From Anaerolineae bacterium (GTDB lineage: Bacteria; Chloroflexota; Anaerolineae; JAAYZQ01): a DNA stretch of 6,187 nt. Position numbers and translations under genes: made by a program. Where the stretch lies: positions 1 through 6,187 of the forward strand of contig JAFGIA010000366.1 in assembly GCA_016929795.1 (NCBI GenBank). Direction: 5' to 3'. Shown here piece after piece: positions 507 through 6,187 of this stretch (its first letter is position 1; every line of letters begins with the position of its first letter). The notes beneath the pieces were generated by a model that had not been told where the DNA came from, made no database searches, and saw only the letters and a program-made list of their open reading frames with translations.

Positions 507-1730
507 CTACTCTGGCTGGACCTCAAAGGCGCCGATATCACAAGGCGCGCTGCGGGGCAAGCCCCGCTGGTCGGTGGCGAGGGGACAGGCGTCGGCCGGC
601 AGGAGATCTTGAGCCGGGCTCCGGGCTGATAAGGCGTGCGTCTGCGTTGCGCCTCCATTGTCGCCGAGGGGCAACAATTCCGGATCACCGCGATAGGCCG
701 CATCGCAGCTTCCATCTCCAACCCAGTTGTTCTGGTTTGCACCAATCGTCGCAGCATCGCCCAGGTGGCAATCCGCCACGGGGTACGATTCTCTTTGCGC
801 CACATTGCCGGCGATGAGCGTGTTGGTATAGCTCAATCGCCCGCGGATCACCGGATTGCGCGGCTCGCGCTTGAGGACATAGATGCCGCCGCCGCTCTTG
901 GCGACGTTGCTGCTAATCGTGGCCTGGGTGAAATCACCCACGCCGTTGAGAAAGACCCCACCACCGTCCTGGTTTGTCCTGTTGCCGCTGATCGTGCTGT
1001 TCACCAGGACCAGGGTCGCCTGGCACGCGATGTGCAGGCCGCCCCCACGCCCTGTCGCCTGGTTGTCGCTCACAGTGCTGCCGATCAGGGTGGTCGTGCC
1101 TATCAGGCTCTTGATGCCCCCTCCGGTGTCGCACTCGTATTCCCGGTCGTGCCCGCCCCGCGCACTGTTGTGGCTGACCGTGCTGTTGATCAGAGTGAGA
1201 TCGCCAGTCGTGTGGATACCGCCGCCGGCACTGGCACTGTTGGCTGTGATAACACACTCCTCCAGGCGCAGCGTGCCTTCGTTGAGGATCCCGCCCCCCG
1301 ACTCGGGCCTGGTGTGCGGGTTTCCGTGACGGATGGTGAGTGCCCGCAGGGTGACAGTGACGCCGGCGGGAATGGTGAACACGCGCTCGGTGGCCGTCTC
1401 GGGTTGGGCATGGGCCTGCACGATGGTCTGCACCGCGCCCGGCGCCTGACCCTGGATGGTGAGGCTTTTGTGAACGTGGATGCCCGCCTCGATGTGCACC
1501 GGATCCAGCAAGGCGATCAGGGCCAGCGGAGCGGTATCCGGGGCATCGATGGCGGCCTGAAGCGTGGCATAGTCGCAGCCGGCGGCGCACACGGTGAGAT
1601 CCGGCACGGACGTGACGATGGGGATAGGGGCAGCCGTGGGAGTCGGCTCCCCACAAGCGATCAGCAGCAGGAGCAGCAATGCCGCGATACCCAGGAGCCC
1701 GATGCCACGTTTGAAAGATAGTTCGGTCAT
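507..1730 (-). CDS. Lipoprotein with right-handed parallel beta-helix and choice-of-anchor Q C-terminus
   Basis: 407 residues if begun at the ATG at 1728-1730, which has GGAGG eight bases upstream. A GTG at 1743-1745 would add five residues but is itself part of that ribosome binding site, so I reject it. Residues 1-26 are a lipoprotein signal: Lys-Arg, a Leu-rich core, then the lipobox LIAC with Cys26 as lipidation site, followed by a Pro/Thr/Ala linker. Residues of about 55-310 form a pectate-lyase-like beta-helix, shown by six GGG turns (145, 169, 203, 229, 256, 280) spaced 24-34 residues apart and by repeated NSTVS-N / NSTIS-N rungs. Residues of about 325-407 match the choice-of-anchor Q pattern: DNGGATQTHAL, SPAQD, TDQRG and DIGAFE. 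It is predicted to be anchored on the outer face of the membrane. Such helices often bind or cleave polysaccharide, but I see no catalytic signature. It lies downstream of the STAND gene on the same strand. No convincing promoter is visible; a weak TATATG lies near 1759-1764. Confidence 0.88.
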   Translation of the reverse strand: MTELSFKRGIGLLGIAALLLLLLIACGEPTPTAAPIPIVTSVPDLTVCAAGCDYATLQAAIDAPDTAPLALIALLDPVHIEAGIHVHKSLTIQGQAPGAVQTIVQAHAQPETATERVFTIPAGVTVTLRALTIRHGNPHTRPESGGGILNEGTLRLEECVITANSASAGGGIHTTGDLTLINSTVSHNSARGGHDREYECDTGGGIKSLIGTTTLIGSTVSDNQATGRGGGLHIACQATLVLVNSTISGNRTNQDGGGVFLNGVGDFTQATISSNVAKSGGGIYVLKREPRNPVIRGRLSYTNTLIAGNVAQRESYPVADCHLGDAATIGANQNNWVGDGSCDAAYRGDPELLPLGDNGGATQTHALSARSPAQDLLPADACPLATDQRGLPRSAPCDIGAFEVQPE

Positions 1731-1772
1731 CAACTCTGCCTCCACTTGTTTACGATCCCATATACCGGGCGC

Positions 1773-1894
1773 TCAGTGCGTTCATCCCCTTCAGTGTTTC
1801 AGTGATTCAACGCACCACCCGCTTTGTATCACTGAGGCACTGAGGGGTAATGAGGACACTGATCAGTGCCCTCACTCACGTCAGTGCCTCAGTG
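1773..1894. repeat. Cluster of nine TCAGTG/CACTGA hexamers in nested inverted repeats
   Basis: TCAGTG occurs at 1773, 1791, 1799, 1863, 1881 and 1889, and its complement CACTGA at 1830, 1838 and 1857. Three pairs (1791/1799, 1830/1838, 1881/1889) have exactly 8-base spacing. The 16-mer at 1828-1843 is the perfect reverse complement of 1881-1896. Between them lies the 12-base palindrome CACTGATCAGTG (1857-1868), extended by TGAGG/CCTCA arms (1851-1855, 1870-1874) with one mismatch. The doublet at 1791-1808 is a direct copy of 1881-1898 with two changes (TT for CC). The cluster fills the gap between the STAND gene stop (1966) and the lipoprotein start (1730). It could be a dispersed repeat, a transcript-stabilising or attenuating structure, or an operator array. 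No T-run follows it. Confidence 0.8.
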
Positions 1895-1965
1895 ATTCGC
1901 TCCCCCCAGACCCCCCTCAGAAGTCAGCAGCCCGAACACAGAAGCCAGCACGCCAGGAACCAGAA

Positions 1966-4900
1966 CTAGAGAGAAGACGTGGACGACCACCCCAACCGCA
2001 CCCCATCGTAAGTGCGGCGATAGTACGGCAAGTTGACGTCGCGGTAGGCGGAGCGCGCCCCAACGGTACCGCTGAACCACGAGCCGCCCCGCAGCACGCG
2101 GTTGCCAGTCCCTTCCAGGACCTCCCGGCCATCCCCGGCCCTGTACGGGTAGGGCACGTACAAGTTGCAGCACCACTCCTGCACGTTGCCGGCCATGTCG
2201 GCGCAGCCGTAGGGGCTGTCGCCTTGAGGCGAGTACTTGCCCACCGGCGTCGTGCCCCTGCTGTCCGACTCCTTCGTGTTGCACTTCTTCTTGTCGAACT
2301 CGTCGCCCCACGGGTAGCGGCGGGCGTCCGTCCCGCGCGCCGCTTTCTCCCACTGCGCCTCGCTCAAGAGCATCTTGCCCGCCCAGCGCGCGCAGGCCAG
2401 CGACTCGTACCAGCAGATCTCGACCATCGGATGGTCATGCTGGCGCGCGTCGCCCCGTTCGGGTTGTTCCCTCTGCCGCCACTGCCAGCCGGCCTCGGTC
2501 CACAGCGCCCGCGATTCCCATCCACCGCCGGCCAGGAACGCGGCCCACTGGGCCACCGTCACCGGGTAGCGGTCGATCCAGAAGGCGTCCAGCCATACCT
2601 CGTGTACCGAGCCTTGGTCACTGCTTTCCGTGCTACCCATGGTAAACGGCCCGGCCGGCACCAGCACCATGCCCGGCGGCGTCCAACGCGCCAGCACCTC
2701 CATCGCCTCGGGCAGGGCCATGCCTCCCAGGGCCGCCACCGCCCGCCGCTGGCGCGGGGTGGCCAGATTCAGGATCGTGCGCCGAACCTCGCATCGCTTG
2801 CCCAGGTGATCTACCCAGATGACCGGCGCGTTGCCGAAATCGGCCTCCACCACACCGGTCAGTCTGCGAACCACTGCTGGAGAGGCCAGGTTCACCCAAC
2901 CAGAAACAGCGCGCTCGGCCTGTTTGGGGTCGCCGGCCTCCAGCCCCGCCAGCAATTCCTCTTCCACTTTGCCCACGACGGCCGGCGCCCGGTCGCGCCA
3001 GTAGGGCACCTCTGCCCCTGCCGCCAGCGCCGAGCGGAAGAGGAGCTCGATTTCGTCATCATCCAGCGCCAACTGCTCACAGCACGACTGTACCAGTTCC
3101 AGTTTACCCCGTTCCAACAGGTGCCCAAACTTTCCCCAGTCGCCCATCGCCCGGCGCAGCATATCTCTGATATCCAGGACCCGCAGCTCCTCGTCGCTCA
3201 CCCACGCCCACACCTTCTCCACCATCACCTCGTGCGCCAGCTCGTAGCGCCCGCCCTCCGCCGCCTCCTCGCCGAACTTGCGCACCACGCGCCGGCCCCG
3301 TAGATAGGCCAGCAGCCGATCCAGCTCCGCCTCGCCCAGCCCCACCCGCGCCACCAGGTCGCCGCGCGCGATCTCTTGCCCGCTCACCGCCGCCTTGGTC
3401 TGCTGTGCCGTCACCATGCTCTTCAGCACCGCCCGCGCCGCCTGCTGCTGCGCCGCGTCGGGCAGGTCGGCCAGCACCTCGTCCAGGTAGCCGGCCAGGA
3501 TCTCGCGCGTACCGCCCAGCGCCCCGTACCGCGCCAGCGTCAGTCCCGCCCCCTGCTTGTCCCGCTCGTCCCACATCCCCTGTTCCACCGCGTCGCGGTA
3601 GAGCCGGTAGAGCACGATCTGCAGGTTGGCCGGCTCCAGCCCCTGGTCCTCGAGGTCAGCGATCAGCCGCTCGCGCAGCGCCTCTTCCACCCTCAGCCCG
3701 AACGCCTCGGCCGGTTTCAGGATGGCCAGCAGCGCCTTCTCCCGCGTCAGGTTCTCCAACCGGAAGCGGTGGCGAAAGACGTCCTGGGGCAGAACCTCGC
3801 TCATCTCGTCCAGCGCCCCCAGGTAATCATCCCGCAAGCTCAGCACAAAGCGTACGTCCAGACGCCTCCCCTCGCCCTCTGGGAGAGGGGCCGGGGGTGA
3901 GGGTGAGGGCCTCCCCAGGCAGTCCGCCATCTCCCGGGCAAAGGCGGTCCGCACCGCCTCCCCCTGGCGCACGAAAAACTCTTCGAACTGGTCGAGCACG
4001 ACCACCAGCCGCCCTGCCGGCGGAAGCGCCTCGGCCAGCACGTCGACCAGGCGACGGCCTCGGTCGCGGTATGACAACTGCCCGGCTCCCTCCAGCCCGC
4101 GCACAGCGGCCTTGACCTCGCTCGCCGGCTCGCCCAACATGCGCGCGTAGGCCACCCGGTAGTCCTGTGCCTCCAGCGCCGGCAGCACGCGCGCCAGCAG
4201 CAGCGACGTCTTGCCCGTGCCGCTGCGGCCGTAGAACACGGTCAGCTTGTGGGCCAGGACGGTGCTCTGCAGCAGCTCGGCCTCCAGATCGCGCCCGAAA
4301 AAGATCGCGGCGTCGTCGCGCTCGTAATAGTCGAGAAACTTGTACGGCTCGGGCGGCAGTGCCTCGCGCTCCTTCTCGACCACGTGCAGGCGGATCGACT
4401 GCTTCAATTGGATCAAGAAGGAGAGAGGAGCGGCGTCGATCAGCTCGACCTTGTCCTGCCAGCGCTTCACGAGCAGGGGGTCGGGCCGGGGCTGGACGGC
4501 GTAGGCGCGGCGCTGGTAGCGGGCGATGGGGCCGGTGATCTCGCGGTACAGGTCCAAAAAGTGCCGGTCGTGGAGCCCATAGCCGACAAAGAGCAGCGTC
4601 TTTTGGGCGAAATAACCCTGCAGGATCACCTTCAGCACGGGCGACAGGCGGCCGAACAGGTCCACCGCGTCGTCTTCGGTCAGCACCAGCCTGTCGCGCT
4701 GGCCGATCGTCCCGTGCAGGCGGATGAGCTGCACGTGCTCGTCGTCGCCAAAGGGCAGGTCGGTGTCGCGCACGACCGAGTTGTAGCGCCGGCCCGCCTG
4801 CTGCAAGGCGGATTCTAGCCGGTCGTCGTAGGCGGTCGTGACCATCACCTGCACCGGCAGCTCGGCCAGCGCGCGATAGACCGGCTGCACCGGGTGTGTG

Positions 4901-5214
4901 GGATAGTGCTTCTCAACAAAACGCTGCACCTGATCCAGCAGGCGGTGCCGGCCGAACTCGCCATCGTATAGCTGTGCCGCCTTGGTCAAGGGTACCTCGC
5001 AGGTGTCTGGGCACAGGCAGCGCGGGGCCTTGCCGTCGGTCACTGCCAGCCCCTTGCACAATCCACAATACGCGCCGCAGGCATCCACCAATGCCGAGGC
5101 GAGTCTGGCGCTCTGCGAGCCTGCTTCATCCAGCGCATCGCCGACGAACAGCACGCAGTCGCGGTGATTCAGGCGCTCGATCAGCTCCGAGGGTAGGTGC
5201 GGTTTGTCGGCCAT
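1966..5214 (-). CDS. SIR2-like / nSTAND1 NTPase / FGE-fold protein, NLR-like conflict (defence) candidate
   Basis: 1082 residues, start ATG at 5212-5214 preceded by GGGAGGAG. Domains in order: (1) SIR2-like, about 16-275, with VLFVGDA (21-27), VTTAYD (125-130), LHG (166-168) and LLFVGYGLHDRHF (207-219), plus a six-cysteine cluster at 46-72; (2) nSTAND1-type P-loop NTPase, about 292-560, with Walker A GRSGTGKT (329-336), Walker B VVVLDQFEEFF (404-414) and LSLRDDYL (458-465); (3) winged-helix-like region, about 565-672, ending in YELAHEVMVEKVWAW; (4) helical linker, about 676-845; (5) FGE-sulfatase/C-type-lectin fold, about 848-1076, with FTMGS, PVTVAQW, PWGDEF, DMAGNVQEW and RGGSW. Known family logic: SIR2 domains often deplete NAD in anti-phage defence, STAND modules switch by nucleotide-driven oligomerisation, and the C-terminal domain senses a target. 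Defence here is inferred, not shown. The FGE domain lacks both catalytic cysteines (Ser1048 and Ala1053 instead), so formylglycine synthesis is unlikely. A palindromic repeat adds about 13 residues in the NTPase. Signalling or developmental control is an alternative role. Confidence 0.92.
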   Translation of the reverse strand: MADKPHLPSELIERLNHRDCVLFVGDALDEAGSQSARLASALVDACGAYCGLCKGLAVTDGKAPRCLCPDTCEVPLTKAAQLYDGEFGRHRLLDQVQRFVEKHYPTHPVQPVYRALAELPVQVMVTTAYDDRLESALQQAGRRYNSVVRDTDLPFGDDEHVQLIRLHGTIGQRDRLVLTEDDAVDLFGRLSPVLKVILQGYFAQKTLLFVGYGLHDRHFLDLYREITGPIARYQRRAYAVQPRPDPLLVKRWQDKVELIDAAPLSFLIQLKQSIRLHVVEKEREALPPEPYKFLDYYERDDAAIFFGRDLEAELLQSTVLAHKLTVFYGRSGTGKTSLLLARVLPALEAQDYRVAYARMLGEPASEVKAAVRGLEGAGQLSYRDRGRRLVDVLAEALPPAGRLVVVLDQFEEFFVRQGEAVRTAFAREMADCLGRPSPSPPAPLPEGEGRRLDVRFVLSLRDDYLGALDEMSEVLPQDVFRHRFRLENLTREKALLAILKPAEAFGLRVEEALRERLIADLEDQGLEPANLQIVLYRLYRDAVEQGMWDERDKQGAGLTLARYGALGGTREILAGYLDEVLADLPDAAQQQAARAVLKSMVTAQQTKAAVSGQEIARGDLVARVGLGEAELDRLLAYLRGRRVVRKFGEEAAEGGRYELAHEVMVEKVWAWVSDEELRVLDIRDMLRRAMGDWGKFGHLLERGKLELVQSCCEQLALDDDEIELLFRSALAAGAEVPYWRDRAPAVVGKVEEELLAGLEAGDPKQAERAVSGWVNLASPAVVRRLTGVVEADFGNAPVIWVDHLGKRCEVRRTILNLATPRQRRAVAALGGMALPEAMEVLARWTPPGMVLVPAGPFTMGSTESSDQGSVHEVWLDAFWIDRYPVTVAQWAAFLAGGGWESRALWTEAGWQWRQREQPERGDARQHDHPMVEICWYESLACARWAGKMLLSEAQWEKAARGTDARRYPWGDEFDKKKCNTKESDSRGTTPVGKYSPQGDSPYGCADMAGNVQEWCCNLYVPYPYRAGDGREVLEGTGNRVLRGGSWFSGTVGARSAYRDVNLPYYRRTYDGVRLGWSSTSSL
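1993..2094 (-). other. Candidate DGR-type variable region in the C-terminal FGE domain
   Basis: Residues 1041-1074 of the STAND protein. The scaffold LRGGSW, RSA, R, P, R, G-RL matches the invariant frame of C-type-lectin/FGE variable regions in diversity-generating retroelements. The positions usually varied read TTC AGC GGT ACC GTT, then TAC, then GAC GTC AAC, then TAC TAT, then CGC ACT TAC GAT. All 15 end in C or T and are reachable from AAC or AAT by changing only the first two bases, as adenine-directed mutagenesis would give. The residues are mixed (F, S, G, T, V, Y, D, N, R), as in a binding surface. In this GC-rich gene third-position C is common anyway, so the codon pattern alone is weak. 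No template repeat or reverse transcriptase lies in the window; they would have to be elsewhere, or the region is a non-diversifying relative. Confidence 0.4.
3866..3909. repeat. Palindromic GC-rich dispersed repeat inserted in frame in the NTPase domain
   Basis: CCCCTC (3868-3873) pairs with GAGGGG (3885-3890), and inside it CCC (3875-3877) pairs with GGG (3881-3883) around a TCT loop, with one G/A mismatch. A G-rich tail with two TGAGGG units follows (3898-3909). On the coding strand it reads SPSPPAPLPEGEG (residues 437-449 of the STAND protein), a low-complexity Pro/Glu/Gly tract of a kind I recognise from short interspersed palindromic repeats common in Chloroflexota, Planctomycetota and Myxococcota genomes. 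It sits between the helix after Walker B and the strand DVRFVLSLR, where a surface loop is expected, so the fold is probably kept. Family identity is from memory; the hairpin and in-frame position are seen directly. Confidence 0.7.
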
Positions 5215-5866: not shown

Positions 5867-5900
5867 GGGGCACAAGAGGAGCCCCGATTGCGCAGTTTTT
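5867..5900 (+). terminator. Weak terminator-like hairpin between convergent genes
   Basis: GGGGC (5867-5871) pairs with GCCCC (5881-5885) across a 9-base loop, two bases after the TAG stop (5862-5864) of the 104-residue gene. A run of five T follows at 5896-5900, but ten bases after the stem, which is too far for a classic intrinsic terminator. Confidence 0.3.
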
Positions 5901-6187
5901 CAGTCCAGCTTGACCAAGCCCCGGCTGACGGCGATGGCGATGAGATGATTCCTGTTTTTGGCTTCCAGGCGCCGCGAAGCGCCTTTTATGTGCCACCTGA
6001 TTGTTTGTACGGACACGTCGAGCAACCGCGCGATCTCCTGATCTGGGATGCCACGGGCAATTAAGGTCAAGATTTCGTGCTGTCGCTCTGTCAGCGTTGC
6101 GGTAGGGATTTCCACCGGTTTCAATAAATGATCGATCCGCCTGAGCAGTTCTGACAGGTCGAAGGGGCGGGTGACCAGATCGCCGGC
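5900..6187 (-). CDS. Response regulator, LuxR-type HTH, 5'-truncated by the window edge
   Basis: The frame is open from the right edge to a TGA at 5900-5902, showing the last 95 residues. The first 20 or so (AGDLVTRPFDLSELLRRIDHL) are the end of a receiver domain: the loop carrying the conserved Lys-Pro pair, here Arg-Pro, then the last helix. After a short linker comes a LuxR-type DNA-binding domain: LTERQHEILTLIARG, the HTH DQEIARLLDVSVQTIRWHIKGASRRL, then a final helix with NRNHLIAIAVSRGLV. A TTG at 6122-6124 could act as an internal start, but the receiver sequence upstream in the same frame shows the gene begins outside. It would be a DNA-binding partner of a histidine kinase, activated by Asp phosphorylation. 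The phospho-acceptor Asp is not in view. Target genes are unknown. The receiver-HTH linker is shorter than in NarL-type proteins. Confidence 0.88.
   Translation of the reverse strand, partial: AGDLVTRPFDLSELLRRIDHLLKPVEIPTATLTERQHEILTLIARGIPDQEIARLLDVSVQTIRWHIKGASRRLEAKNRNHLIAIAVSRGLVKLD

Follow-up and report, generated by a model that had tools for sequence, protein, structure and literature searches.

The DNA analysed here, a stretch of 6,187 nucleotides from an Anaerolineae bacterium that we call the window, carries a main gene predicted to encode a fusion of SIR2_2, nSTAND1 and FGE-sulfatase domains, with a candidate variable region for a diversity-generating retroelement (DGR) at its C-terminus (Table 1). 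The earlier note on this DNA had placed such a region at positions 1993-2094. These coordinates proved to be right, since on the minus strand they correspond to residues 1041-1074 of the 1082-aa ORF, and the scaffold is present as RGGSW, ARSAYR, P, R and GVRLG. As judged from the architecture alone, the order SIR2_2, nSTAND1, FGE has the layout of STAND conflict or defence proteins, with an N-terminal effector, a central STAND NTPase and a C-terminal sensor. The variable columns, between residues 1047 and 1070, lie at the C-terminal end of the PF03781 match (846-1074), as in DGR-target domains. An AlphaFold model of the protein had a mean pLDDT of 79.8 and values below 50 across residues 1040-1067, so that it was uninformative on the variable face. 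No reverse transcriptase was found among the window ORFs looked at, and the window contained neither a tRNA nor an Rfam match at the gathering score. Elsewhere in the window, a 412-aa ORF (507-1745, minus strand) showed a lipoprotein-like N-terminus by eye and a match to a Chlamydia PMP repeat, while a LuxR/GerE-type regulator (5900-6187, minus strand) was truncated at the window end.

Table 1. Features of the main gene and its downstream region, in window coordinates.
Feature	Position	Strand	Remark
Main gene: 1082-aa ORF, SIR2_2 + nSTAND1 + FGE-sulfatase fusion	1966..5214	minus	Putative DGR variable protein
SIR2_2 domain, residues 123-247 (Pfam stretch)	4474..4848	minus	
nSTAND1 NTPase domain, residues 290-695	3130..4347	minus	
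FGE-sulfatase domain (PF03781), residues 846-1074	1993..2679	minus	Pfam
Residues 1039-1075: variable region (predicted) and its conserved scaffold	1990..2100	minus	Column entropy, codons, relatives
Region spanned by the 16 hypervariable codons (residues 1047-1052, 1059-1062, 1064-1065, 1067-1070)	2005..2076	minus	
Flank 3' of the stop codon, with YTCTG repeats and then a double G-run (GGGGGGTCTGGGGGG; GGGGGG-TCT-GGGGGG)	1902..1965	minus	
Perfect 16-bp inverted repeat with inner hairpin/palindrome, just downstream of the flank	1828..1896	minus	

The SIR2-like region matched ThsA, KomC and DSR1/DSR2 in PADLOC and in a PDB sequence search, mostly within about residues 76-249. By sequence match the window protein resembles these SIR2 NADase defence proteins at its N-terminus; it differs from them in having nSTAND1 in the middle and FGE at the C-terminus. 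Both an Asn and a His have catalytic roles in SIR2 enzymes. In the alignment with KomC and ThsA, His167 (LHG) is retained, while the Asn of the KomC motif TTNYD is replaced by Ala128 (TTAYDD, window 4831-4833), so that only one residue of the NADase pair is present. A crude search pattern, a few of whose hits were out of register, located a TTNYD-type motif in 82 of 120 rows of the homologue alignment, 19 of them with Asn; P0023-type homologues retain TNYD. The SIR2-like effector of the window protein may be inactive or repurposed.

In order to define the variable positions from the data, we used a full-length protein search that returned 764 homologues, of which 120 were listed, the window's own protein included. 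Usable C-termini were present in 104 of these rows and 90 of them were non-redundant (<80% identity, window included). Columns with an entropy above 3 bits in the 90 sequences were considered hypervariable. Sixteen such columns were found between residues 1047 and 1070, interleaved with the conserved scaffold columns (RGG, AR, R, P, G-R). The residues K, E, Q, M and W, which NNY codons cannot encode, made up a mean of about 9% in the 16 columns; for the 15 columns exceeding the same threshold upstream of residue 1040 the figure was 31%. The exceptions were columns 1050 (46%), 1067 (21%), 1051 (18%) and 1068 (12%); at column 1050, Glu or Gln was frequently encoded by the templates described below.

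Pairwise comparisons gave the same picture. P0022, which has the closest FGE domain among the matches listed, shares with the window protein 146 of 190 upstream residues and 14 of 16 scaffold residues, against 4 of the 16 variable ones (protein level). Of eleven relatives selected, all but P0116 fit the spacing of the region; the FGE domains of these ten are 65-77% identical to that of the window upstream and match it at 0-4 of the 16 variable positions. Similarly, P0070, which is 41% identical overall and has the tail GVRLG-x-SSTSSL in common with the window protein, agrees with it at 20 of 21 scaffold positions and at 2 of 16 variable ones, and P0085 and P0089 are 92% identical upstream and identical at 21 of 21 scaffold positions, against 25% at the variable positions. 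The earlier note had named close homologues varying evenly over the FGE domain as evidence against its reading; examined here, the differences concentrate in the predicted columns. We consider this column variability the strong part of the case. A clade of nine nSTAND1-FGE proteins (P0066, P0069 and P0076-P0082) behaved differently, the pairs listed agreeing at 81-100% of their variable positions, which indicates that some family members are not diversified and that family membership alone is no proof of diversification. The 90%-identity cluster of the window protein has one member, on one contig.

As controls we used 19 EgtB-like sequences from actinobacterial loci, a label that we chose for the resemblance of their ends to the EgtB chain 4x8b. 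Their mean entropy was 0.64 in the same columns and 0.71 at residues 846-1040, while 50 random samples of 19 sequences from the window family gave 2.96 and 1.15, respectively. This comparison bears on the reading of the domain as a catalytic FGE/EgtB-type enzyme with a C-terminus that is merely poorly conserved. The best matches of the window FGE domain in the PDB sequence search are indeed enzymes (CalU17, EgtB and FGE), but the same columns are conserved in the EgtB-like homologues and the domain is fused to nSTAND1 and to a SIR2-like module, and we regard this reading as almost certainly wrong.

At the codon level, the earlier note had claimed that all 15 variable codons end in C or T and can derive from AAC/AAT. 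This was true for 14 of the 16 codons defined by the data; the exceptions were residues 1052 (GGG) and 1062 (TTG), which cannot be derived from AAC/AAT, and a count of 15 is obtained only by dropping these two and adding TAC at residue 1057. Against a gene-wide NNY rate of 45%, 14 of 16 has a binomial p of 5e-4, and when the pattern was slid along the gene, 3 of 1000 placements reached this count. Nevertheless, a count of 14 was also reached in 41 of 91 other FGE genes, and among the EgtB-like controls the mean was 10.6 and the highest value 14. The rates of difference to foreign templates at A and non-A positions were likewise similar in the window (0.70 and 0.35) and in the EgtB-like controls (0.74 and 0.40). 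Both measures were dropped as evidence, and because the NNY pattern does not discriminate the window gene from related FGE genes, the DGR case was not built on codons. The pattern is a real one, compatible with DGR action, but on its own it is weak. The likeness of window and controls in both measures speaks for a pocket of FGE/EgtB-like type that binds a ligand and is under ordinary positive selection or under relaxed constraint, without any retroelement. Against this stand the interdigitation of the variable columns with a near-invariant scaffold, their low K/E/Q/M/W content, the conservation of the same columns in the controls and the adenine-only pairing with a template in a homologue of the same architecture (see below), which together make such an explanation very improbable.

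For the sequence downstream of the stop codon, we defined a flank motif post hoc, which requires a double G-run within 140 nt and three or more YTCTG within 90 nt. The motif was present in the window, in four of the seven template-matched targets recovered (eight were sought) and in none of the 19 EgtB-like controls. Among other loci it occurred in 20 of 103 FGE genes, template-matched ones included, and in 22 of 30,614 tiles. Regarding the template-matched targets that missed it, only 78 nt of flank were available for L118, L088 had two YTCTG and the double G-run, and L143 had neither. A plain count of CTG in the 3' flank, made before this motif was defined, gave no separation (3.52 per 90 nt in FGE genes and 3.53 in controls). 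In two other loci, L090 and L191, a C-rich arm comes after the G-runs; directly after those of the window gene there is none. Its place is taken by the perfect inverted repeat, the sequence of which differs from the C-rich arm and of which a 14-base exact piece was found in 0 of 310 loci. Folded as single-stranded DNA, the 1800-1965 region was predicted to be stable (z -3.28). Retrohoming can be affected by DNA structures located 3' of the variable region.

Genomes of relatives provided pairs of templates and targets. From eleven genomes supplied, five of which yielded none, we made 29 template-target comparisons. In eight of them, from six genomes, 85-100% of the mismatches fell at template adenines, and five of these six genomes lie behind loci named Chloroflexi, Anaerolineales or Anaerolineae. 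One pair shared the architecture of the window protein, namely that of the P0087 gene (L118), which encodes a SIR2_2, nSTAND1 and FGE fusion in G009 (Anaerolineales bacterium E26_bin7, locus L015): all 14 mismatches over 79 bases were at template adenines. The template is an AAY-rich repeat on another contig (L163/L215), and an IGNLTSQ-bearing reverse transcriptase (L093) is likewise encoded in G009. Both L118 and its template have CAG at the position of Arg1042, which is near-invariant in the homologue alignment. Compared with the P0087 gene, the template (L215, G009:C448) contains an inserted stretch of about 20 nt, which could reflect either a damaged template or an assembly variant. A second target of the same genome, L132, had 12 of 13 mismatches at template A, while the gene of P0030 (L110), with 12 of 17, did not fit the template, so that a further template is likely in G009. 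The remaining adenine-specific comparisons were L013 (15/15, G008), L143 (15/15, G002), L007 (14/16, G004), L088 (19/20 with three gap positions, G015) and, in G534, L270 (14/15) and L274 (17/20). Target, reverse transcriptase and template occur together in the L007 and L013 loci. The other 21 comparisons were not adenine-specific (for example 17/37 for L247 and 11/34 for L048), one of them being template against template, and a template therefore does not serve every FGE gene. Reverse transcriptases with IGNLTSQ or VGNLTSQ, motifs that we take to be a hallmark of DGR enzymes, were found in 7 of 16 genomes of one set and 5 of 16 of another, and across all loci we counted 30 template-like sequences in which 9 or more of the 16 codons were AAN. 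In L113 (G021), a template was observed about 200 bases from an FGE target. The FGE part of the window gene had 32 matches in G009 and 37 in G534, pieces of one gene being counted apart, which suggests that both genomes may hold large receptor repertoires.

We then consider the template of the window gene itself. No near-copy of the variable region was present among the repeats shown for the window, and none of the template-like sequences compared fitted the gene, all having at least 14% non-A mismatches. The nearest were L281, with 17 non-A mismatches in 107 bases, and L101, with 9 in 63, which indicates that neither is its template. An order-level protein search matched 3 of 400 genomes, G001 included; the order of G009 comprised two genomes. 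At the class level, a DNA search gave scaffold or flank matches in 13 of 396 genomes, none of them the template of the window gene, and a protein search matched 19 of 396, the best being G534 with 65% identity on a contig that ends before the end of the FGE. A query with a reverted template matched in 50 of 298 genomes, and the loci fetched contained many templates, none of which fitted the window. Two candidates per genome were scored in each of the two class-level searches and in the reverted-template search. Positions 1880-2130 of the window had no match in phage records, and a scan of viral contigs with the window protein confirmed no relative. A separate scan of genome contigs, run with two generic patterns, retained 80 relatives out of 571, the majority matching in the FGE part only.

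The absence of a fitting template among the sequences compared would also agree with the window gene being a former target, its region once shaped by a DGR or acquired by transfer, with template or reverse transcriptase lost and the region now fixed. The clade with nearly fixed variable positions in the wider family, the G-runs without a directly following C-rich second arm as in L090 and L191, and the insertion in a relative's template (L215) point the same way. However, the window ORF, its scaffold and its YTCTG/double-G flank are intact, and the ten relatives with similar upstream FGE sequences differ from it at 12-16 of the 16 positions; we regard a former target as unlikely. Rather, the hypervariable columns, the adenine-only pair of P0087 and the flank motif together indicate that the window gene is most probably a DGR target. 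The variable-region reading of the earlier note is thus sustained by evidence from relatives (the P0087 pair, column hypervariability, DGR-type reverse transcriptases and AAY-rich templates) and by a target-like 3' flank in the window, while none of the template-like sequences compared fits the gene. Our best explanation, which we hold with high but not full confidence on sequence comparisons, is that residues ~1039-1075 form a DGR-target variable region rewritten from an AAC/AAT-rich template in a SIR2-nSTAND1-FGE receptor, the template and reverse transcriptase most probably being located elsewhere than the window.

For the mechanism, we infer an active template for the window gene itself, in which most of the variable codons would read AAC/AAT. 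A DGR reverse transcriptase that mutates adenines would copy the template-repeat RNA, and the mutated cDNA would replace the 3' end of the window gene by retrohoming, for which the conserved scaffold and the flank would provide the homology. The outcome would be varied side chains on the FGE domain, a C-type-lectin-like fold that would act as the sensor of the receptor. Ligand binding would drive the nSTAND1 domain, which in turn would activate the N-terminal SIR2-like domain, and the window protein would thereby have a sensing, immune-receptor role.

Similar sensors have been described. Among the sequence matches of the window FGE (residues 946-1051) was a weak one (E 7e-4) to Treponema denticola variable protein 1 (TvpA, PDB 2y3c), presumably an FGE-type DGR variable protein that is free-standing and not a STAND fusion. 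Fusions of STAND NTPases, nSTAND1 included, to FGS domains often have DGR components nearby or elsewhere in the genome, according to passages of Kaur 2021 (PMC8195603), and passages of Dore 2024 (PMC10907252) treat DGR-diversified nSTAND1/NACHT-CLec targets as putative antigen sensors. As far as these passages go, such proteins combine, like the window protein, nSTAND1 (or NACHT) with a C-terminal FGE/CLec variable region, are proposed to sense invaders and are served by a DGR that lies either beside the target or at another place in the genome. Their other domains, for example EADs, TIR, DRHyd, calcineurin, peptidases, kinases and FHA, differ from the SIR2_2 of the window. The term SIR2 is absent from the main text of Dore 2024 (PMC10907252) and occurs once in Kaur 2021 (PMC8195603), for another system; a literature search for antiviral STAND with SIR2 and Avs5 found no paper. 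In the VMAP ternary systems, passages of Kaur 2020 (PMC7159879) report DGR-linked FGS domains with the template sometimes elsewhere in the genome. They share with the window a C-terminal FGS on a conflict protein, there DGR-diversified, but a Pfam scan of four window proteins gave neither a vWA nor a MoxR match. Remote targets would be missed by the DGR survey of Roux 2021, as part of that text indicates (PMC8144416). On the portions of this literature cited here, DGR-diversified nSTAND1-FGE sensors are already known, the SIR2-type N-terminus is a variation and the window protein is a probable member. It would add such an N-terminus to the sensors apparently diversified by DGRs.

A wider proposal, which we put forward tentatively and consider rather doubtful, is that Anaerolineae DGRs act in trans, a few templates diversifying a dispersed FGE repertoire as in G009 and G534, SIR2-like/nSTAND1 proteins included. 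This would resemble somatic hypermutation with varied N-terminal outputs, one of which, the SIR2-like domain without Asn, would be a NAD-ligand switch and not an NADase. G009 and G534 are genomes in which a comparison of templates, reverse transcriptases and numerous dispersed FGE genes is feasible. The question bears on the purpose of DGRs in cellular (non-phage) hosts, namely whether a small number of templates acts in trans to rewrite a large set of immune-like sensors. In G001 (L001, contig G001:C24), two nearby paralogues of the protein were seen, the match to one of them containing an in-frame TGA.
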